A stretch of 64,000 nucleotides of DNA from Chitinophagaceae bacterium (GTDB lineage: Bacteria > Bacteroidota > Bacteroidia > Chitinophagales > Chitinophagaceae), in assembly GCA_947447265.1 (NCBI GenBank), contig CANFKC010000016.1:1-64000 (forward strand), given 5' to 3'. The number at the start of each line of letters is the position of its first letter. Positions within the stretch are counted from its first letter, which is position 1. This document shows, piece after piece, positions 1-55,446 of the stretch. The translations under genes were made by a program, and so were the position numbers. The notes under the pieces are model-generated. The model was not told the DNA's origin, searched no databases, and saw only the letters and a program-made list of their open reading frames with translations.

Positions 1-82
1 ACTCCGGCTTGCCGGTTGTTGAGGCAAGCCTTTCTTTTAATTGAACATCTGTAAGATGATTTACCAACTGTAAGGTTCGCAT
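1..82 (-). CDS. N-terminal fragment of an unidentified protein, cut by window start
   Basis: An open frame on the minus strand starts with ATG at 82 and runs off the window. The 27 visible residues begin MRTLQLVNHLTD and read through without a stop. The fragment is too short to assign a family. The Leu/Lys-rich helical start would fit a helix-turn-helix protein or a transposase, but that is only a guess. Confidence 0.4.
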   Translation of the reverse strand, partial: MRTLQLVNHLTDVQLKERLASTTGKPE

Positions 83-406
83 AGCTCCCTATTTGAACCA
101 AAGATAGTAAATTATTATTTTAATAATTTTGATGGCGGTTTATTATTAGTTTGGGGTGCTCAATAAAAATGATTGACAAAATCCGCTGCCAAGGCGAAGC
201 GGGCATAGCAATGTTCCGCTAGCATCTGGCAAAGTTAAATGGGTAAATATTATTCCCGGCTATGATTCCTTATTTGTAATTGTTCATCAATTCTCCCATG
301 TATCGCCTGGTTATCGTTGCTTTGTCCTTCCCGTTAACAAACCGTTATGTGTCTAAATATTAAATTTTTTTCATTAATTTGTAGGCGTTTTTAATATAAA
401 AAAAAG
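83..406. other. Intergenic region, nothing recognised
   Basis: These 324 bases separate the divergent fragment at the window edge from the T9SS gene. They are AT-rich, with several stops in all frames. The final 50 bases before the ATG at 407 are A/T runs and probably hold the promoter of the surface protein, but I cannot place a clean TTTG-N19-TAnnTTTG pair. Confidence 0.4.
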
Positions 407-1426
407 ATGAAAATGCATATCAAACCGGTTTGCGCTTACTTGAAAGGGTTGTGTGCCTTGCTGTTGGTTATAATTGTTTCGGGTACAGCCCGGGCGCAGA
501 CCAGCCTCAGTTATGGCGATGTGCTGGTAGTAGGTTTCAACAATAACATGACGACAGCAGGTGACCGCGATTTTCAGTGGGTGCCATTAGTAAACCTTTT
601 ACCGGGCACAGTTATAAAGTTTAATAATGCCAGCTTTGCTACTACTGCAACGGCCAATACAGCAAATAATGCCATGAACTTTGGTGGTACCACCATCTGG
701 ACGAATACGGCAGGTTTTACCATTGGTGCAGGTACGGTTATCACCATACACAATGGAACGGCAACCACGGCTTCGTTAGGGTCATGTTCTGCTTTGCCAT
801 CATCATGCTCGTGCGGTTCCAGCAGCGGCGCTTTCATGCCGCAATCAACCAGCGGTGGGAAAATATTCATTTATGATGGTGGTACTTCGGCGGCTTCAAC
901 TACCGATTTTACCGTATCAACCAACCCTTCCACGTTTAATGGAACGCCGGTAAGCTACATGACCTTTCAGGGAACGCAAACAGGTTACACAACATTGTTG
1001 AGTTCTGGCACTGCAAGTTCTTTCAAAACTTATCTGCCTGCCGATCTGGCTTCTTATAGTTTGTTCCTTGCAGGCAATGCCATCGGGGGCTACTATAACG
1101 GCCCCAGGCTTAATGGTTCTGTAGCGGCTATTAGTGCAGCTATCCTCGATCCGGCAAACTGGGTTACAGTATCTGGTGCAGGTTCAATTGTAACCTACCC
1201 GACAGGTAATTTTTCATTTGGGTCTGGCCTGTCATTTGGCGCAGCTGCAACTTTTTCGGTTTACGGTAACTCTACTGCAAACCCTTTAGGCAGCCAACTT
1301 GCTTTTGTCGATACCACCATCAGCTCTGCTGATTCCATAACAGTTATTAATGCGCCGGGCCACGGCAGCCTTGGTGGTTTCCCTTATACGGTCACTTCTA
1401 CAGGGGGTATATATAATACCTTCTAG
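407..1426 (+). CDS. T9SS surface protein, 5' part of a frameshifted gene
   Basis: This is the first 339 residues of what was, or is, one protein of about 1,128 residues ending at 3794. It opens with a signal peptide (charged MKMHIK, a hydrophobic core at about 13-25, ARA-Q cleavage site). It then carries a roughly 290-residue domain with the pattern SYGDVLVVGFN...FQWV...GTVIKFNNASF. The same domain recurs after the frameshift (about 1550-2270: TYGDVYIIDVNN...YQWVTL...GTVIKFSNAAF), so the N-terminal half is a tandem domain duplication. The frame ends at a TAG at 1424-1426, just after a run of five G at 1403-1407. Removing one G restores a match to the equivalent segment of the second copy (TSTSGVISPVGLSYTP). 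I infer an exported adhesin or enzyme-like surface protein; the domain family is not recognised. Confidence 0.8.
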   Translation: MKMHIKPVCAYLKGLCALLLVIIVSGTARAQTSLSYGDVLVVGFNNNMTTAGDRDFQWVPLVNLLPGTVIKFNNASFATTATANTANNAMNFGGTTIWTNTAGFTIGAGTVITIHNGTATTASLGSCSALPSSCSCGSSSGAFMPQSTSGGKIFIYDGGTSAASTTDFTVSTNPSTFNGTPVSYMTFQGTQTGYTTLLSSGTASSFKTYLPADLASYSLFLAGNAIGGYYNGPRLNGSVAAISAAILDPANWVTVSGAGSIVTYPTGNFSFGSGLSFGAAATFSVYGNSTANPLGSQLAFVDTTISSADSITVINAPGHGSLGGFPYTVTSTGGIYNTF

Positions 1427-3794
1427 TCTGTCCTACACACCAACGACGGGTTTTACGGGTGTTGATTCGTTCCGGGTTCGCCTGAGCAACGGCAGTGGCG
1501 CAATAATGCGCACCTTTACTGCCTTTGTCAATGCACCCCTTGCACCAACTACACTTACTTATGGCGATGTATATATTATTGATGTAAATAACTACAACGG
1601 CACAGCGCCGGGCACTTACCAGTGGGTGACGCTTAAAGCGTTAGGCACGGGCACAGTAATTAAATTTAGCAACGCAGCATTTTCCAGCAGTGCAAGTGCC
1701 AATAGCAGCGGTAATGCAATAACCTCAAGCCGGACAGCCACCGTGTGGACCAATACTACAGGTGCTACAATACCTGCAGGTACAGTAATCACAAATGATG
1801 CGTGGGGTAATACTACCCTGGGCAGTTGTAGCCGCATCGCTACGGCCTGCGGCTGTGGCAGCACCGGTGTTAATATGGCGCAAAGCACCAGCGGTGGTAC
1901 TATTTTTGTTTACTATGGCGGCACTGCGAATTCAACTACAAGCGATTTTTCAGCCAGTGCAGCTTCAGCTACTTTTAATGGTACCCCATTGAGTATAATA
2001 GCTTTGCAGGGTATTCAATCCTGGTCAAACTGGTTAACTACGGGTACTGTACCTAACTTAACTACCTACCTGCCTTCCGATCTAAATGCTTATTCGCTTT
2101 TCCTGGGCTCAAGTGCAGTGGGTGCAACTTACACAGGACCAAGAACAGGCGGTACTGTAGCCTCGTTTGCTGCTGCTATTCTTAATTCGGGAAACTGGAC
2201 AGCCGTAAAGAGTACGCATTCTGTAACGTTCGACAATACTAACTTTACATTTGCGGTTCCTGCGCACCCACCGACTTTCATGAGTGGTGCCCGCCAAAAT
2301 ATGACCACTTGCAATAATGCCGGAGCTCGTTCCCTGAACAGCTACCTGAAAGTAAATGATATTGATACTGGTGAAACTATTACTTACAGTCTTTCAGCCG
2401 CACCTGTTCATGGTACCGCTGTGGTCGGCTATACAACAACTTCAACCAGTGGGGTTATTTCACCAGTCGGCCTATCGTATACGCCGGCCCCGGGTTTTAC
2501 TGGCCGCGATACCTTTAGCGTGCAGGTTACTGATGGCACTTATTATGCCGTTACAACCATCTTTGTCCTGGTAAACCCAAGCCCGTCAGTGCCGGTTATC
2601 TCAGGTTCAACTTACGTGTGTGCCAGTGGCACAACTACGCTTAGTGCCAGCCCTACAGGTGGTGCATGGGGTTCTACAAGCAGCAACGCTGCTGTTGTAG
2701 CTACAACGGGAGTTGTTACCGGCATTTCAGGCATTTCAGGTACTATTATTTATAACGGTCCTTACAATTCCTATAGCTGCCGTAGCCAGGCTGTTTACCC
2801 GATAGCTATTGTTGGCATGCCTTCAGCAGGCGCTGTTTCCGGCGCAACAAGTGTATGTCCTGGTACCAGCTTTACCTTAACACCAACAGTATCCGGCGGC
2901 ACATGGAGTGTTAACTATCCCGGTATAGCCAGTGTGTCAGCTTCGGGTGTTGTTACAGGGGTAACGCATGGCAGCGCAACCGTTACGTATACGGTAAGTA
3001 ATGCATGCCGCACTGCTACAGTGAGGACTGCTGTAACCATTCTTGGCGCGCCAGTTTTGCCAGGTGCAATAGGTGGAATTCCATACGTGTGTGAAGGTGG
3101 TGCAACTATAACTTATACTAATTCGCTTGCCGGCGGGGTCTGGAGCCTCAGCAACACATCGCTCGCAACTATATCTTCTACCGCTACTGTTACCGGTATT
3201 ACTGCCGGGCCAGATACTGTGTTGTATTCTTATACCAACGTATGCGGCGTAGTGCGGACAGAACCAAAATACATTACCATTAAGCCTTTGCCAAATGCAG
3301 GTACTATTTCAGGTGCTGCTACTCTGGTAAGGTTAACGAACACGCTTTTGACAGCATCGGTTGGTGGTGGAGTATGGTCAAGCGCTACTCCGTCTCTTGC
3401 AACCATAAATACAGGGGGCAGGTTGTATGGCCTTGCAGCTGGTATGGATACGGTAAAATACACTGTTACTAATACCTGCGGCGTGGCATTGGCCATAAAG
3501 TTGGTAAGCATAACATCAAGCAGGGCAAACAACAATAATGAATTTTCACTGGCTGAACAGAGTGAACTAAGCATATTCCCCAACCCTGCAAACGGTATAG
3601 TTGCGGTGCAATTAAACGGCGCAGAAGGCAGTATGAATGTAATATTGACTGACATTGCCGGCAAAGTACTCGCATCAAAGTACAGTGAGAACACATTACT
3701 CAATTTGGATTGCACCGCCCTGCCAGCAGGCATGTATCTGGTAAAGGTTTTCAATAACGGTAATACTTTTACGGCTAAAATTGCGGTGCAATAA
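1407..3794 (+). CDS. T9SS surface protein, 3' part of a frameshifted gene (Ig-like repeats, type A sorting domain)
   Basis: This part continues the gene at 407 in the +1 frame and has no credible start of its own; any start codon near 1350 lies inside the upstream part. In order it holds the end of domain copy 1 with a cadherin/VCBS-like linker (SLSYTPTTGFTGVDSFRV), domain copy 2, a second linker of the same type (GLSYTPAPGFTGRDTFSV, about 2470-2560), then four Ig-like BIG2-type modules of about 75-80 residues (pattern GTWSV..IASVSASGVVTGV..GSATVTY). The last 75 residues are a T9SS type A sorting domain (SIFPNPANG ... LPAGMYLVKV). The product would be secreted by T9SS and anchored or released at the cell surface. 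The strong hairpin at 3871-3894 is the likely transcript end. Confidence 0.8.
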   Translation, partial: VYIIPSSLSYTPTTGFTGVDSFRVRLSNGSGAIMRTFTAFVNAPLAPTTLTYGDVYIIDVNNYNGTAPGTYQWVTLKALGTGTVIKFSNAAFSSSASANSSGNAITSSRTATVWTNTTGATIPAGTVITNDAWGNTTLGSCSRIATACGCGSTGVNMAQSTSGGTIFVYYGGTANSTTSDFSASAASATFNGTPLSIIALQGIQSWSNWLTTGTVPNLTTYLPSDLNAYSLFLGSSAVGATYTGPRTGGTVASFAAAILNSGNWTAVKSTHSVTFDNTNFTFAVPAHPPTFMSGARQNMTTCNNAGARSLNSYLKVNDIDTGETITYSLSAAPVHGTAVVGYTTTSTSGVISPVGLSYTPAPGFTGRDTFSVQVTDGTYYAVTTIFVLVNPSPSVPVISGSTYVCASGTTTLSASPTGGAWGSTSSNAAVVATTGVVTGISGISGTIIYNGPYNSYSCRSQAVYPIAIVGMPSAGAVSGATSVCPGTSFTLTPTVSGGTWSVNYPGIASVSASGVVTGVTHGSATVTYTVSNACRTATVRTAVTILGAPVLPGAIGGIPYVCEGGATITYTNSLAGGVWSLSNTSLATISSTATVTGITAGPDTVLYSYTNVCGVVRTEPKYITIKPLPNAGTISGAATLVRLTNTLLTASVGGGVWSSATPSLATINTGGRLYGLAAGMDTVKYTVTNTCGVALAIKLVSITSSRANNNNEFSLAEQSELSIFPNPANGIVAVQLNGAEGSMNVILTDIAGKVLASKYSENTLLNLDCTALPAGMYLVKVFNNGNTFTAKIAVQ

Positions 3795-4171: not shown

Positions 4172-5971
4172 CTAGTAACGTCCTTTGCCACGGCTTCCGC
4201 TTCCGCCGCCACTGCTGCTGCTTCCACCACCTTCTCTACCACCGCCATAAGATTTTACATCTCTTGAAAAACGCGTGCCGCCACTGCCACCTTTGTAGCC
4301 ACCACGGTCACCGCCGCCGCCACTGCCGCCTTTATAGCCGCCACCGCTTCCGCCACCTGGGCGAGGTTGTTCAGCTTCTTCAAGCCTTACTTTACGGTTC
4401 TTGAACTTCTTGGTAGCAAGGTGCTCCTTAATATATTCCGCTGCATCAGCTGGTACGTTAAAGAAGCTGCTCAGGTCGCGAACGGTAACACGATCTATCA
4501 TGTTAGCTTCAACGTCGGTTGACTCAGTTATGAACTGTGTAAGCCTTGCTGCGTTCAGCCCGTCTTTTTCACCAATGTTAATGAATAAACGCACGAACCT
4601 TGCACCACCTTCACCACCTCTTGCGCTCCTTGCCTTAGTTTCGAAACCTGCGTTCAGGTCTTCAGCATCAGCATAAGCATCAATAGTATCTTTCAGTTGT
4701 AACCAAATCAGTTTCTTGATCAGTTCATCCTTGTCTACGTTAGCGAACTGCTCATGCATGCTATCGTAATACATTTTAGCAAAAGCGTCTTTTGGTTCAG
4801 CATTTGCAATCTGTTCCATGTAGAAGAACAAACGCTTGCGCACAACTTCAGCGCCATCAGGAATATCGCTCTTATGGAATTTCTGTTTAACTAACCTTTC
4901 AATCTGGCGGATATTAGATATCTGCTTTGGAGAAACGATAGACATACAGATACCTGATTTACCTGCACGTGCGGTACGGCCGCTACGGTGCGTATAAACT
5001 TCAGGGTCATCAGGTAATTCGTAATTAATTACGTGGGTAATATCATTTACGTCAATACCACGCGCTGCAACGTCAGTGGCCACAATTGCCTGCAATTGTT
5101 TGCTCTTGAAGCGGTCCATTACCTTGCTACGCATTTTCTGGTCCATATCGCCATGTAAAGGGCTAACGTGGTAACCCATCTTCATGAGTTTTTCAGAAAC
5201 TTCCTGCGCATCCTGCTTGGTACGTGTAAAGATGATGCCATAGATACCCGGAGCAAAATCCAACAAACGACGAAGTGTTTCGAAACGGTTATGGTGATTA
5301 GCTACAAAGTACTGGTGGTCAATATTTTCGTTAGTAACGTTTGCCGCTGCTACTGAGAACTCTTCCCACTGCTTCATGAAGCGTTTGGCAATGCCGCGAA
5401 CTTCATTACTCATGGTCGCTGAAAATAACCAGGTGGTTTTTTCAGCAGGGGTGTTTTTAAGTATCAGCTCAATGTCTTCACGGAAACCCATGTTCAGCAT
5501 TTCATCTGCCTCATCGAGTATCACGTATTTCAATTGCTCTAAAGAGATTGCTTTACGCTCTAAAAGGTCGATAAGCCTGCCCGGAGTGGCAACTACCACC
5601 TGTGGGTTTGACCTCACGTCGCGGATCTGGCCCATAATAGGCACACCGCCATAAACAGCTGCAATGCGAAGGCCACGCATGTGGTCGCCGTATTTTGTTA
5701 ATTCGGTTTGTATCTGCATACACAACTCGCGTGTAGGACTCAAAACCAGACATTGTACAGTTTTTACACTTACATCAGTATGGTGCAACAACGGTAAGCC
5801 GTATGCGGCTGTTTTACCGGTACCAGTCTGCGCTAACCCAATGATATCTTTCGGGTCTGTTAATAGCGTAGGTATTACTTTCTGTTGGATAGGGGTTGGA
5901 GATTCGAAACCAAGGTCAGCTAGTGCCTGCAATAATTCTTCCCTCAGGGGGAAGCTTGAAAAAGAATTCAT
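4172..5971 (-). CDS. DEAD-box ATP-dependent RNA helicase (DeaD/CsdA type)
   Basis: This 599-residue protein unwinds RNA duplexes using ATP. It probably acts in ribosome assembly and cold-temperature mRNA remodelling, as DeaD/CsdA does. All helicase motifs are present: Q motif (GFESPTPIQ, 21-29), motif I AQTGTGKT (47-54), PTREL (79-83), TPGR (129-132), DEAD (153-156), SAT (184-186), the TDVAARGID motif (299-307) and HRSGRTARAG (328-337). Residues about 457-515 (VRLFINIGEKDGLN...) match the DbpA-type RNA-binding domain, and the last 60 residues are a Gly/Arg/Ser-rich tail that probably adds non-specific RNA binding. The ATG at 5971 places the Q motif at the usual distance. It is monocistronic, with its own terminator at 4031-4062. 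The exact orthologue (deaD versus rhlE or csdA) is uncertain. Confidence 0.95.
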   Translation of the reverse strand: MNSFSSFPLREELLQALADLGFESPTPIQQKVIPTLLTDPKDIIGLAQTGTGKTAAYGLPLLHHTDVSVKTVQCLVLSPTRELCMQIQTELTKYGDHMRGLRIAAVYGGVPIMGQIRDVRSNPQVVVATPGRLIDLLERKAISLEQLKYVILDEADEMLNMGFREDIELILKNTPAEKTTWLFSATMSNEVRGIAKRFMKQWEEFSVAAANVTNENIDHQYFVANHHNRFETLRRLLDFAPGIYGIIFTRTKQDAQEVSEKLMKMGYHVSPLHGDMDQKMRSKVMDRFKSKQLQAIVATDVAARGIDVNDITHVINYELPDDPEVYTHRSGRTARAGKSGICMSIVSPKQISNIRQIERLVKQKFHKSDIPDGAEVVRKRLFFYMEQIANAEPKDAFAKMYYDSMHEQFANVDKDELIKKLIWLQLKDTIDAYADAEDLNAGFETKARSARGGEGGARFVRLFINIGEKDGLNAARLTQFITESTDVEANMIDRVTVRDLSSFFNVPADAAEYIKEHLATKKFKNRKVRLEEAEQPRPGGGSGGGYKGGSGGGGDRGGYKGGSGGTRFSRDVKSYGGGREGGGSSSSGGGSGSRGKGRY

Positions 5972-50983: not shown

Positions 50984-51961
50984 ATGTCTGTATTAGTTTT
51001 AGTTGAACACGCACAGGGAATATTTAAAAAGAAATCGTTCGAAGCAGTACAATATGCTGCCCATATAGCTAAAGAAATGGGTGCCGGCGTAACTGCTATA
51101 ACAACAGGTAATGTTGCCGATAGCGAGATGCAGGCTTTAGGCGCTTATGGCGCTAACAAAGTGTTGCACTCTACCGATGCCCGCCTCGATAATTTCAGCA
51201 GCCGCGCTTTTGCCAAAGTGGTAGTAGCCGCAGCACAAAAAGAAAGTGCCAAGGTTATTATAGGCCTACACGATACAACAGGTAAGGCAGTTATGCCACG
51301 CGTTGCAGCTCGCCTGCAGGCTGGCCTGGTTGCGGGTGCTGTTGGTTACCCTGACCTGAGCAAAGGTTTTGTGGTAAAGAAAAACGTATTTTCAGGAAAG
51401 GCATTTGCTTTCGTAAATATCACCAGCGATGTGAAAGTAATTACCCTGATGCCAAACACCTACCCTGTAGTAAAAGCCGATGGCAGCGCAAGCGTTGACA
51501 AGCTGGATGCAGGACTTACCGATGCCGACTTCGCAGTAAAAGTGATCTCTGTAGATAAAGCTACAGGCGATGTTCCACTTTCAGAAGCGGAACTGGTAGT
51601 ATCTGGTGGCCGTGGTATGAAAGGCCCTGAAAACTGGCATGTATTAGAAGACCTGGCTAAACAATTGGGTGCAGCAACAGCATGCAGCCGCCCGGTAGCC
51701 GATTCACACTGGCGCCCACATGGCGAACACGTTGGACAGACAGGTGGTACCATCCGTCCGAACCTGTACATCGCAGTTGGCATTTCAGGCGCTATACAGC
51801 ACCTTGCAGGCGTTAATGGCTCCAAGACCATAGTTGTCATCAACAAAGACCCGGAAGCACCATTCTTCAAAGCCGCCGACTACGGCGTTCTCGGCGATGC
51901 CATGGAAGTTATCCCCCGCCTCACAGAAGCAGTAAAAAAATACAAAGCCAGCCAGGCTTAG
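50984..51961 (+). CDS. etfA: Electron transfer flavoprotein, alpha subunit
   Basis: This is the 325-residue partner of EtfB. The N-terminal domain begins MSVLVLVEHAQGIFKKKSFEAVQYAAHIA. The C-terminal FAD domain has VVSGGRGMKGPENW (about 206-219), the conserved SRPVADSHWRPHGEHVGQTGGTIRPNLYIAVGISGAIQH and INKDPEAPFFKAADYGVLGDA. It stands in an etfBA operon; no dehydrogenase or ETF-QO gene is nearby. A strong terminator follows at 51986-52016. Confidence 0.96.
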   Translation: MSVLVLVEHAQGIFKKKSFEAVQYAAHIAKEMGAGVTAITTGNVADSEMQALGAYGANKVLHSTDARLDNFSSRAFAKVVVAAAQKESAKVIIGLHDTTGKAVMPRVAARLQAGLVAGAVGYPDLSKGFVVKKNVFSGKAFAFVNITSDVKVITLMPNTYPVVKADGSASVDKLDAGLTDADFAVKVISVDKATGDVPLSEAELVVSGGRGMKGPENWHVLEDLAKQLGAATACSRPVADSHWRPHGEHVGQTGGTIRPNLYIAVGISGAIQHLAGVNGSKTIVVINKDPEAPFFKAADYGVLGDAMEVIPRLTEAVKKYKASQA

Positions 51962-51985: not shown

Positions 51986-52016
51986 AATGCCCCGCGAATG
52001 CGGGGCATTTTTTTGC
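51986..52016 (+). terminator. Terminator after etfA
   Basis: AATGCCCCGC (51986-51995) pairs with GCGGGGCATT (52000-52009) around a GAAT loop, followed by a T run. Confidence 0.88.
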
Positions 52017-52141
52017 TTACCCTCGTCCGCGTTTGCAACGCGGATGCCCCGGATCGGCGTTTGTAACGCCAGTATAAAATATCCGCACTCGTCCGCGTTT
52101 GTAACGCGGATGCCTCGTGTAATCGCTTTTGCCGACATTTT

Positions 52142-52537
52142 ATGAAGAAAGCTGCATATGTTCTTACTTTGATTTCAGTGGTACTTTGTTACTCATGCGG
52201 CAACAATGTGCCAAAGGGCACTGATACAGGCAAAACAATCATGGACTCCACAACAAATGGCAAGCTGGTTAAAGTCTCGCCGGATCCGTTGATTTTTGGG
52301 GTTTGGTGGTATGCTGGCGAAGATTTACCAAGTGCTAACTTTGTCATTCAAAAGGATTCTATCTTTTACCCCGATAACTTCCAGTCCTTCCCTTATATAT
52401 TTTCAGACGATAGCATAAGTATTACCTATGACAGTGGTTATTGTGTGACAAGCCAATACAAAATGAAGGGCCAGGATACGCTGATGATTTTAAGCGATGA
52501 TGGATGGGGCACATTTATCAGGAACGGCGGCAGGTAG
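52142..52537 (+). CDS. Small putative lipoprotein
   Basis: This 131-residue protein has a lipoprotein signal peptide: MKKAAYVLTLISVVLCYSCGNN, with Cys19 as the probable lipidation site after a hydrophobic core (a weak lipobox, L-C-Y-S-C). The rest is short and beta-rich (FGVWWYAGEDLPSANFVIQKDSIFYPDN, ISITYDSGYCVTSQYKMKGQDTLMILSDDGWGTFIRNGGR), as in small extracytoplasmic Bacteroidota proteins. It lies inside the hairpin-mosaic region, with module A copies just upstream. The function is unknown. Confidence 0.7.
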   Translation: MKKAAYVLTLISVVLCYSCGNNVPKGTDTGKTIMDSTTNGKLVKVSPDPLIFGVWWYAGEDLPSANFVIQKDSIFYPDNFQSFPYIFSDDSISITYDSGYCVTSQYKMKGQDTLMILSDDGWGTFIRNGGR

Positions 52538-53516
52538 TAAGTACTTCGCGCGCCAACTAGTCCAAGCGTCCCGCTTGGTCTTAACATTTGCAAGCGTCCC
52601 GCTTGCGAAACCCAACTAGTCCAGTTTTTGTAACGCCAATACCACGGAACAGCGTTGCAAACGCAGCTTTAATCCACTGCAGGTATCTACAGTTTTTCCC
52701 CACCTCGTCCGCGTTTGTAACGCGGATGCCACGGATGGGCGTTTGTAACGCCAGTACAAAACACTATTTTTGATTCATGTCAGGCGACAGATACGTTATA
52801 GAAGACCAGCATGGAATCCACTTTCTCCCGATTTGGCGCAAGTGTTTTTCACTTGTGTCTGTTCCGCTGCAAGTCTTTTCGACTTGCGAATAAATCATTA
52901 CCAACTAGTCCAAGCGTCCCGCTTGGTCTTAACATTTGCAAGCGTCCCGCTTGCAAAACCCAACTAGTCCAGTTTTTGTAACGCCAATACCACGGAACAG
53001 CGTTGCAAACGCAGCTTTAATCCACTGCAGGTATCTACAGTTTTTCCGCCGTTGTTGGTGTTCTCACCAACAACCATCGGGACGTATTCTATTTGTGCTT
53101 TCAATGCAGCTCACTCATCCACTTTTGTAACTCCGATTCGTCGCACGCTAACCAAACCTACCCCGATTTGGCGCAAGTGTTTTTCACTTGTGTCTGTTCC
53201 GCTGCAAGTCTTTTCGACTTGCGAATAAATTATTACCGCTATATGGCTCACTCGTACGCGTTTCCGCCGTTGTTGGTGTTCTCACCAACAACCGTCGGGA
53301 CGTATTCTATTTCTGCTCCAAGCTCGTCCGGGTTTGCTGTCGACCTGCATTTGTACCCCAGATATAAAAAGCTATTTTGGGAATGCTTGCTACGCCAGTC
53401 TAAAAAGCTATTTTTAATTTTCTGGGGCAACCTATACTAAATCGAATACCCGGCAGACTGTGAGACACTAAAGTAGTTTTAGGAACATTGAAATAATTTA
53501 AGAAAATACCCTTAGA
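52538..53516. other. Non-coding part of the hairpin mosaic
   Basis: 979 bases filled with modules A, B, C and D, as listed under the mosaic. Several open frames cross it, but they are translations of the repeats (the same peptide recurs with each copy), not genes. The last 80 bases, before the ATG at 53517, are AT-rich and repeat-free. Confidence 0.7.
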
Positions 53517-53915
53517 ATGGACGCAAAACAAATATTCTTTTTAGACCTCTTAACTATTCTTCCCGGAGAAGTGACTATCTCGGTTGAATGTTATGCAACC
53601 AACTTAAATACTCCATTCGGGCCCTTATTCTCACAAAGGAGTGACTGCGAATTCATCTTTGAACTAAACCAAGACAATCGTGCGTTTTTTTATGAGGCAA
53701 TTGCCAGTCATGAGATTATCGATTGCTTCAGCTACGTTGCAATAACAAAACCTGATTGCAATAACCTGACAAGAGTTGGAGATAAATTGCTTTTCGAAGC
53801 TCATGATGCTATTGAAAATGGTGCTACTTTATCAAATTCTGTGACCATTCCTCTATGGTTTAACGAAAAGTATGAGCCCCAAAAAGATATGTATTGTGTA
53901 TCGCAAGAATGGTAA
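53517..53915 (+). CDS. Hypothetical cytoplasmic protein within the repeat mosaic
   Basis: This 132-residue protein has no signal peptide. The composition is protein-like (MDAKQIFFLDLLTILPGEVTISVECYATN..., SDCEFIFELNQDNRAFFYEAIASHEIIDC, LWFNEKYEPQKDMYCVSQEW) and unlike the flanking repeats. I do not recognise a family. It is flanked on both sides by mosaic modules, the nearest C copy beginning 28 bases after its stop, so the repeats may mark the edges of an acquired cassette; that is speculative. Confidence 0.55.
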   Translation: MDAKQIFFLDLLTILPGEVTISVECYATNLNTPFGPLFSQRSDCEFIFELNQDNRAFFYEAIASHEIIDCFSYVAITKPDCNNLTRVGDKLLFEAHDAIENGATLSNSVTIPLWFNEKYEPQKDMYCVSQEW

Positions 53916-54960
53916 CGCCAGTTTATAATCCCCCTCGTCCGCCCCGATTTGGCGCAAGTGTTTTTCACTTGTGTCTGTTCCGCTGCAAGTCTTTTCGACT
54001 TGCGAAAAAATTATTACCGCTATATGGCCCACTCCTCCGCGTTTGTAACGCTTATGCCACGGAGTGACCTTCGTAACGCCAGAACAAATCCCCTATTTTA
54101 ATTCATGTAGTACAGGCAAAGACCTACCTTGCACCTTGTCACCTGCATTACATTACCTGGAATGCGCCGTAGGCGCTACCGCTCTGTAGAAAATAGAATG
54201 CCAAAGAAACTTCCTCCGTTAGGAGGTACCCTATTCAGCCGTTGTTGGTGTTCTCACCAACTACCATCGGGAGGTATTCTATTTGTGCTTTCAATGCACC
54301 TCACTCATTCCCTTTTGTAACGCGGATTCGTCGCACGCTAACGACACCTGCGCCATGGCGCGACATTAATCTCCCTTCTCTATGGGAGAAAGCCAGTCCC
54401 GCTCTTCCAGCGGGAGGTTGGGGATGAGGCCAGAGCAGATAGCGCGTTTTCTGCAATTGTTGGCGTTCTCACCAACAACAATCTGGACGTATTCTATTTG
54501 TGCTTTCAATGCACCTCACTCATTCCCTTTTGTAACGCCGATTCGTCGCACGCAAACCACACCTGCGCCACGGCGCGACATTAATCTCCCTTCTCTATGG
54601 GAGAAAGCCAGTCCCGCTCTTCCGGCGGGAGGTTGGGGGATGAGGCCAGGGCAGATAGCGCATTTCTTAAAAAAACTACACGGTCATTGTAAGGCACGAA
54701 GCAACCTCACGGGAGCATCAGTTTACATAGTCCACACCATCACGTTATCCTCCTCATTTTCAACCTGTGAAAACACAGTGCATAACGCTTTTTTAAGAGG
54801 AGATTAACCGGCAACTTTGCCCTATGAAACAACTATTAGACTACACCTGCACGGCACTCAAATCTGCACTTGCCTACAATGCAAAGCAACAAAAGAGCCA
54901 ACTCTTTTTCAATTTTGCAGGCACTGGTTAACACCTCGATAACCAAACACAAGCCTCAAT
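53916..54960. other. Non-coding part of the hairpin mosaic and spacer
   Basis: The first 750 bases are modules C, A, D and E. From 54669 to 54960 there is single-copy sequence, with a short fragment related to repeat family 2 near 54683-54715 and a 35-residue frame at 54824-54931. Confidence 0.6.
54824..54931 (+). CDS. Possible 35-residue protein or truncated gene start
   Basis: ATG 54824 opens a 35-codon frame (MKQLLDYTCTALKSALAYNA...NFAGTG). CAACTTTG at 54812-54819, one mismatch from TAnnTTTG, lies four bases upstream, as at several genuine genes here. It could be a tiny gene or the remnant 5' end of a lost one. Confidence 0.25.
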   Translation: MKQLLDYTCTALKSALAYNAKQQKSQLFFNFAGTG

Positions 54961-55446
54961 TTAAACAGCCCCTGATTGCATTTGTTTCATGTGGTTGGTA
55001 CAGTAAAGCAACAACAATAGCATTACGGGGTCATTACCCTCAGTATAGTTGTCGTTGGTTTCAATAGCGTAGTTGAAGGATAATTTCGCCCACTGGAAAT
55101 CAGGATGCAGCGTAATGATTTCCTGTTCCTGCTCATTCATCAATACATAGGTGCTATGGAAAAAGCCCTTTGGCTTCAGCATATAGGTTGTTCCACCCTC
55201 CATGGTAATTATGATCTGGGCTTTCCAGTTATACTTCATGGTACACTTTTCCGCGCCGTCTTTTGTCATGTGCAGCATAGTGTGCCATATGTTGGATTTG
55301 CCTATCTCGTATTTGTCGCCATTAGGTAGCAGCACCTCAGCCTTGGTAGAGAACCACGATGTGTAATCCAGTTTTCCCATTGCGGTTTCAGTGCTGTCCA
55401 CAAGTTCAAAATGCCTGTTATGTATGCCTTTAGCCGTGTATCGCAT
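54961..55446 (-). CDS. Hypothetical protein, possibly LURP/tubby-like
   Basis: This 161-residue protein has no signal peptide. Repeating beta-strand pairs (MRYTAKGIHNRHFELVDSTETAMGKLDYTSW, KAEVLLPNGDKYEIGKSNIWHTML, KYNWKAQIIITMEGGTTYMLKPKGFFHSTYVLMNEQEQEIITLHPDF) suggest a scramblase/LURP-one-like beta-barrel, followed by a short hydrophobic segment PVMLLLLLYC near the C-terminus. The assignment is a structural guess. It stands alone, convergent with the mosaic. Confidence 0.6.
   Translation of the reverse strand: MRYTAKGIHNRHFELVDSTETAMGKLDYTSWFSTKAEVLLPNGDKYEIGKSNIWHTMLHMTKDGAEKCTMKYNWKAQIIITMEGGTTYMLKPKGFFHSTYVLMNEQEQEIITLHPDFQWAKLSFNYAIETNDNYTEGNDPVMLLLLLYCTNHMKQMQSGAV

Follow-up and report, generated by a model that had tools for sequence, protein, structure and literature searches.

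The locus and the question it raises

What has assembled the 2.65-kb mosaic of small hairpin modules that lies downstream of etfA in a Chitinophagaceae bacterium? The mosaic sits in a 64,000-nt stretch of DNA (the window; positions 1 to 64,000 of CANFKC010000016.1, assembly GCA_947447265.1), contig C16 in a draft genome that has 5.06 Mb in 98 contigs and is 98.8% complete. A reading made from the letters alone (the sequence-only reading) had described recurring modules, here A to E, around two small genes, and had offered repetitive extragenic palindromic (REP) sequences moved by a REP-associated tyrosine transposase (RAYT) as one possibility and structured RNA as another. We find that modules A to D are REP-type elements of RAYTs, and that the region is very probably a graveyard of such repeats, grown around a former RAYT locus (REPtron) downstream of etfA. 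Two results make the REP/RAYT explanation specific: A to D match hairpins at the sides of RAYT genes, and the window itself holds the remnant of a RAYT gene. Throughout, G000 is the genome under study, C numbers are its contigs, G numbers are other genomes and L numbers are extracted loci.

A dense cluster of hairpin modules

All copies of modules A to E could be located in the window (Table 1), so that the recurrence first described is real. Module B is a pair of 147-bp copies (52553-52699 and 52901-53047) that are 99% identical, the three C copies are 97-100% identical over 72-76 bp, and D is present four times. A tandem duplication of D+E had been claimed with a length of 214 bp; the duplication was borne out, with a period of 215 bp. 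Module A is found in four copies, one of them partial, and an A-derived stretch is present in each B copy.

The region is also as rich in hairpins as had been reported, with 19 perfect hairpins (stem of at least 6, loop of 3-5) in 2.65 kb, or 7.2 per kb, compared with 43 in the rest of the window (0.70 per kb). Folded as single-stranded DNA (ssDNA), eight modules gave z scores between -3.4 and -7.3, and 0 of 200 shuffles of each were as stable.

Modules A to D match hairpins beside RAYT genes

A RAYT search of 195 genomes of the family gave RAYT-like matches in 153, with at least one match over the NF047646 cut-off in 80. The set of 90 RAYT loci used below consists mostly of top-scoring loci plus five from the same genus; it is not random, and it contains one gene twice (L046 and L090). 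Of these loci 79 were parsed by script, at least one (L060) in the wrong frame, and 11 without a suitable open frame were dropped.

A RAYT gene is indeed present in the genome under study: a single gene scores over the NF047646 cut-off (C53:2717-3271, minus strand; 99.6 bits against a cut-off of 80), and C-type twin hairpins stand at both of its sides in inverted orientation. With the motifs NHVH, WQ, YIHNNP and WSS and a HuH-Y distance of 84, this gene fits the motif set of RAYT subclass 2.6 (NH[LIV]H, WQ, YIH[QN]NP, SS).

BLAST placed the other modules beside further RAYT genes. Module B matches both sides of L085, a RAYT from the same genus, in inverted orientation (E 1e-10 and 5e-9), as well as the downstream side of L087 and L088 and, weakly, L063. 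A-type hairpins match at L102 (E 2e-8) and L063 (E 6e-9), on the 5' side of one gene and on the 3' side of another, and D matches both sides of L143, again inverted (E 2e-5 each). The D-linked RAYTs (L091, L124 and L143) are of a visibly different lineage, with WE instead of WQ. L085 reaches 100.5 bits for RAYT (NF047646) and is a RAYT and not a TnpA-IS200 by NCBIfam cut-offs; its AlphaFold model has a predicted local distance difference test score (pLDDT) of 92.5, and a PDB sequence search returned weak TnpA matches only (best E 0.07; 4er8 at E 0.2).

Such flanking hairpins are frequent in the set as a whole. At least one perfect hairpin was found within 150 bp upstream of the RAYT in 57 of 78 cases, downstream in 58 of 76, and on both sides in 48 of 75, as compared with 35 of 298 control windows at distances above 350 bp and a total of 26 hairpins in 770 dinucleotide shuffles. 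Stem likeness moreover tracks RAYT likeness (Mantel r 0.435 over 28 loci, 0 of 5000 permutations).

The modules are short, intergenic, repeated and palindromic, which would also suit miniature inverted-repeat transposable elements (MITEs) of an unrelated DDE transposase. However, A to D match RAYT flanks, and the three C copies show no flanking duplication evident by eye; no search for a DDE transposase was made. MITEs are the least plausible of the explanations that we weighed.

Other transposase genes of this genome gave some minor observations. At G000:C30:28467-28907, a single open frame of 987 aa contains two pieces that match the RAYT profile weakly. Repeated hairpins stand beside both of two Y1 transposase genes (L024 and L025; G000:C2:7598-10939, 1-3115), the first of which carries DHIH and YIKNQKEHH as in subclass 1.2, a subclass described in PMC6006769 as generally without such flanking structures. 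The sequence GTAGGTA precedes a 10-bp hairpin at a second RAYT-like gene (L029; G000:C22:31971-35153), so that this genome may harbour a GTAG-type REPtron alongside its GTAG-less families.

A RAYT gene remnant in the window

At L102 an A unit is followed by a leader and then by the gene start ATGTCAGGCGACA. The same succession stands in the window at 52704-52827, where a C unit cuts it short; what is left of the coding part is codons 1 to 17 of an A-type RAYT gene (52777-52827). L102 DNA running from behind the hairpins into the gene matches window positions 52756-52826 with E 8e-7, the next match in the 64 kb having E 0.86. The 17-mer scored 61 against RAYT N-termini, and the next best among 1190 ATG-started open 17-mers scored 35. 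In the congener G202 an A unit, the leader and the same start are kept, and the gene is cut off after a few codons. Since A unit, leader and 17 codons stand here as they do at L102, the locus, judged by its sequence, probably once carried an A-type RAYT.

In the stretches of G000 that were examined, the leader pattern following an exact AACGCC was found only at the A copies at 52704 and 54032 and at L031:6879, which is not among the A units. Another stretch considered as a RAYT remnant, L031:5323-5553, was discarded because a stop codon interrupts it and an unrelated open frame overlaps it.

Twin hairpins of near-fixed geometry

Units of A, B and C are tandem hairpin pairs, and D is a single hairpin. 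Stem 1 and spacer measure 7+12 in A, 7+11 in B and 6+13 in C in the window. A strict search of the 79 parsed RAYT loci, requiring two perfect hairpins 3-17 nt apart, gave 48 twin units at 28 loci, a few of which are chance-like or reversed. Stem 1 and spacer added up to 18 or 19 in 34 of the 48 units, and the two were inversely correlated (Spearman -0.72); stem 2 and spacer were not correlated. When the RAYTs were thinned at 55% identity, the sum was 18-19 in 9 of 14 clusters and the correlation persisted (rho -0.70, p 0.006).

The loops are likewise oriented. Read towards the gene, 142 of 173 flank hairpins have T as their first loop base, compared with 26 of 51 control hairpins 350-650 bp off; by cluster, T is in the majority in 23 of 26. 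The A to D loops in the window likewise start with T. A GT[AG]G foot before hairpin 1 appeared once (GTGG) in the canonical units, the others carrying TGCT, TTGG, TGGT, TGGG or other sequences.

Compensating stem changes had been proposed for the pairs CCGCGTT/GGCGTT and CCAAGCG/GCAAGCG, but each pair consists of hairpins 1 and 2 of one unit; these positions are not homologous, and the differences are therefore not covariation. Covariation is seen, though, among the genome copies of A. In 40 distinct rows 93.5% of the cells pair, and 17 cells, a count inflated by related copies, changed on both sides, against 4.3 (sd 1.6) in shuffles and above all 500 of them; the double changes were G-C to U-A in 9 cases and G-C to A-U in 4 and 4. 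For D the signal is weak (3 cells, likewise inflated by related copies; 27 of 500 shuffles as high).

Spread, orientation and setting of the copies

Copies of the modules are dispersed through the genome. Counting those in the window, 52021-53060 as a query found at least 63 places, D at least 39 and E 20, the first two counts coming from searches in which 40 first-look candidates were scored. A covariance model trained on 42 A copies, with 150 candidates scored per genome, gave 58 matches in this genome and 4 to 52 in nine of ten other genomes of the genus, the tenth (G199) giving none at E 0.001. In the stretches examined, the copies of A to D shun open reading frames (ORFs): 5 of 105 midpoints fell inside one, vs 753 of 1750 random positions, in a crude test that took every open frame of at least 130 aa as an ORF.

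All module copies in the window are on the plus strand, and neighbours within 1 kb in the stretches examined had the same orientation in 43 cases and the opposite one in 15. Bacterial interspersed mosaic elements (BIMEs) carry REPs in alternating orientation. The likeness to BIMEs that had been suggested was rejected on this count, whereas the REP/RAYT part of the same suggestion is sustained by the RAYT flanks and the gene remnant.

The setting of the copies could also be taken to suggest structured RNAs, or 3'-end stabilisers or terminators of neighbouring genes, that spread by duplication. The elements are intergenic, the stems of A covary, and among 61 copies with an ORF on each side, those sharing a cluster not being independent, co-directional ORFs surround 40 (30 sense, 10 antisense), convergent ORFs 16 and divergent ORFs 5. 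However, over 51.9-54.8 kb every Rfam match stayed below the gathering score of its family, and seven of these eight sub-threshold matches fall between 51900 and 52050, on the end of etfA and its terminator. The cluster lies beyond this apparent terminator, a hairpin with a T-run; by eye, A, B and C have no T-run after hairpin 2. An RNA role would furthermore leave the inverted B, C and D pairs at RAYT flanks unexplained, and no match to A to D was found in the six congener etfA loci that have 1.4 kb or more of downstream sequence. We therefore consider the RNA explanation, which the sequence-only reading had left standing, very unlikely.

Plain tandem or segmental duplication, through slippage or unequal recombination and with no transposase, would fit the B pair and the 215-bp D+E pair, which are duplications, as well as the tandem arrays elsewhere in the genome (an A cluster with a period of 94 bp and a D cluster with a period of 167 bp). 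Duplication is a likely cause of the growth of the cluster. As a complete account it is refuted and scarcely credible, because A to D occur on many contigs away from the locus and A, B and D stand beside RAYTs in other genomes.

G202 is the closest of ten congeners by the query used (91% over etfA), and its contig ends within etfA. On the G202 contig with a homologue of the gene at 54961, A, D and A units surround other sequence, and the cluster therefore seems labile. A putative empty site at the A unit G000:C3:124443 was rejected, as the 345-bp gap there corresponds to 125 bp in G202 and the flanks are too diverged to set boundaries; loss in G202 is a possible cause of the shorter gap. Empty-site searches for L149 and L154 gave no clean two-sided site.

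Comparison with known systems

According to selected sections of PMC6006769, subclass 2.6 RAYTs of Bacteroidetes are flanked by 'atypical secondary structures' that lack GT[AG]G, are weaker and have copies elsewhere; its Table 1 has the motifs given above for this subclass, and the published median HuH-Y distance is 82. The RAYT at C53 resembles these REPtrons (RAYT group 5) in its motifs, in its HuH-Y distance and in its GT[AG]G-less flanking hairpins with copies elsewhere in the genome. The difference is that the structures are called atypical there, whereas A to C are tandem twin hairpins with a near-fixed geometry and T-first loops. As far as those sections go, GT[AG]G-less atypical structures at 2.6 genes are already known, and what is new is the twin-hairpin layout with its geometry, and the gene fossil; no description of twin-hairpin REPs was found in the literature searched, in which PMC6006769 is represented by those sections.

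The REPs, BIMEs and REPINs of E. coli and other gammaproteobacteria (RAYT groups 2 and 3) are likewise short intergenic palindromes that are RAYT-linked, clustered and have an oriented loop (PMC8266576 and PMC3733652, both cited here and below for selected sections). They differ from the units described here, which have no GTAG foot, comprise two same-direction hairpins each and have neighbours that are mostly head-to-tail. It is established for these two groups that RAYTs cleave REPs carrying a GTAG foot as ssDNA and that bases of the loop can be recognised specifically; in the sections cited, tests of recognition are confined to GTAG-tagged REPs of these groups (PMC8266576).

CGTC REPs share with our units the start of A (CTCGTC), and Bacteroidetes are among the phyla listed for them (PMC3733652). 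However, B has CTAGTC and L085 has CTGGTC; CGTC REPs have loops of 4-5 nt and flanked 0 of the transposase genes examined (PMC3733652), whereas the A and B loops are of 3 nt and RAYTs are flanked here. Loop length and RAYT association led us to reject this identity. The ends of IS200/IS605 elements (IS608, ISDra2) resemble our case in the HuH Y1 enzyme family, the subterminal hairpins and the loop T, which is contacted by the enzyme in that family (PMC8266576), but here one 2.6-type gene goes with dozens of hairpin copies, and L085 is not a TnpA-IS200.

Weighing the evidence and a proposed history

Several observations weigh against a graveyard of RAYT-mobilised repeats. Mobility is something that we infer, no transposition event having been seen. 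The 2.6-type RAYT of this genome has an in-frame TAG at codon 54, and module E matches 0 of the 90 RAYT loci. The next strongest RAYT-like genes of the genome, at C22, C33, C2 and C8, have no A, B or D match within about 1.5 kb on either side, and no cognate RAYT for A, B or D was found in this genome (flanks at these four contigs; C30 not checked). In the wider set, 27 of 75 RAYT loci are without hairpins on at least one side, the strict perfect-hairpin rule finds a twin unit in only 28 of the 79 parsed loci, and thinning at 50% identity gives a sum of 18-19 in 4 of 9 clusters and a correlation that is not significant (rho -0.56, p 0.12). For A, two of the five measures of covariation are no higher than in shuffles, namely the number of pairs with double changes (equalled in 231 of 500 shuffles) and the number of pair types (435 of 500). 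The strict subclass 2.6 motifs occur in only part of the 79 RAYTs (NH[LIV]H in 68, [FLYV]W[QE] in 43 and the strict Y motif in 31; broader patterns for the NH[LIV]H, W and Y motifs in 79, 68 and 69), and the related enzymes are therefore called 2.6-like; L085 has WI where the published table gives WQ. Finally, the tblastn match of the remnant is modest by itself (E 1.3e-4, against 1e-3 for the best of 40 shuffles), so that the remnant claim is carried by DNA collinearity together with the 17-mer ranking; the number of queries per spot is no evidence, since shuffles put up to 13 on one.

We propose that A to D are at least four families, each of which has or had its own RAYT, an HuH Y1 single-strand transposase. 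A, B and C would be twin-hairpin REPs recognised as ssDNA, and copied or pasted, by a subclass 2.6-like RAYT that, by analogy with groups 2 and 3, would bind the T-loop strand of the twin unit; D would be a single-hairpin REP belonging to a different RAYT lineage. Copying or moving would most likely take place while DNA is single-stranded during replication. At this locus the A-type RAYT gene would have been lost, leaving the upstream A unit, the leader and 17 codons cut by a C unit, and later tandem duplication (the B pair and the 215-bp D+E pair) would have enlarged the cluster. From its sequence, the genome's own subclass 2.6 enzyme is probably dead, and A to D would therefore be largely fossil in this genome.

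It is possible, and we put this forward tentatively, that the ssDNA signal for 2.6-like RAYTs of Bacteroidota is composite, and that in it two tandem hairpins, an 18-19 nt length of hairpin-1 3' arm plus spacer and T-first loops take the place of a GTAG foot and one hairpin. If so, each RAYT lineage would have its own stem 'key', and enzyme and hairpin pair would diversify jointly, leaving layered orphan families. A GTAG-less twin-hairpin REP with measurable geometry and matched RAYTs would allow a direct test of substrate choice in another RAYT group, and an unexplained Bacteroidota mosaic would become a readable history of a lost transposase, orphan repeats and later invaders.

Features of the locus and further repeats

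Table 1. Features of the hairpin cluster and its surroundings (window coordinates).
Feature	Position	Strand	Remarks
etfA	50984-51961		PF01012 + PF00766; cluster lies downstream
Apparent etfA terminator	51986-52014		hairpin + T-run, read by eye; upstream of cluster
A unit 1	52022..52079	+	hairpins CCGCGTT-TGC-AACGCGG, GGCGTT-TGT-AACGCC; spacer 12
A unit 2, partial	52088..52117	+	hairpin 1 only
131-aa ORF	52142..52537	+	outside the element
B unit 1	52553..52612	+	hairpins CCAAGCG-TCC-CGCTTGG, GCAAGCG-TCC-CGCTTGC; spacer 11
A-derived degenerate stretch	52612..52699	+	second half of 147-bp B module; matches A copies
A unit 3	52704..52763	+	complete
RAYT leader and 5' gene remnant	52764..52827	+	start codon 52777; reads MSGDRYVIEDQHGIHFL; ends at C element
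C unit 1	52827..52898	+	hairpins CAAGTG-TTTTT-CACTTG, GCAAGTC-TTTTC-GACTTGC; spacer 13 (12 with G-T closing pair)
B unit 2	52901..52960	+	
Second A-derived stretch	52960..53047	+	of 147-bp module
D unit 1	53044..53095	+	one hairpin GTTGTTGGTG-TTCT-CACCAACAAC, outer CCG/CGG
C unit 2	53161..53233	+	
D unit 2	53262..53312	+	
A tail remnant, short	53389..53406	+	78% to reference copy
132-aa orphan ORF	53517..53915	+	stop codon within A-tail remnant 53912-53929
C unit 3	53942..54014	+	immediately 3' of A head CTCGTCCG (53934-53941)
A unit 4, degenerate	54032..54088	+	leader + start codon 54105; no recognisable RAYT codons beyond
D unit 3	54234..54285	+	
E unit 1	54340..54450	+	without RAYT link
D unit 4	54449..54500	+	
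E unit 2	54555..54665	+	second half of 215-bp tandem duplication
ORF beyond cluster	54961-55446	-	

The two small genes within the cluster are not part of the elements. For the ORF at 53517 a homologue was found in 0 of 194 other family genomes searched, a sample to which G200 and G202 do not belong. The ORF at 52142, whose N-terminus is presumably lipoprotein-like, has a homologue in the congener G200 (68% over 128 aa), on a contig other than that of G200's etfA.

Further arrangements of repeats were seen outside the window. At L034 (G000:C6), C and D, whose RAYTs are of different lineages, form repeated inverted C(+)/D(-) pairs with about 20-30 bp between the two members (C at 2459 with D at 2545, and C at 4765 with D at 4847). 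Another repeat, with the motifs TTCGAGGTTTAAAACC and GAAAGGGTG, lies around the genome's own RAYT (L030:2220-2300 and 3412-3490); a stretch resembling it stands beside an A unit at L153:724-836 and matches several G202 contigs.

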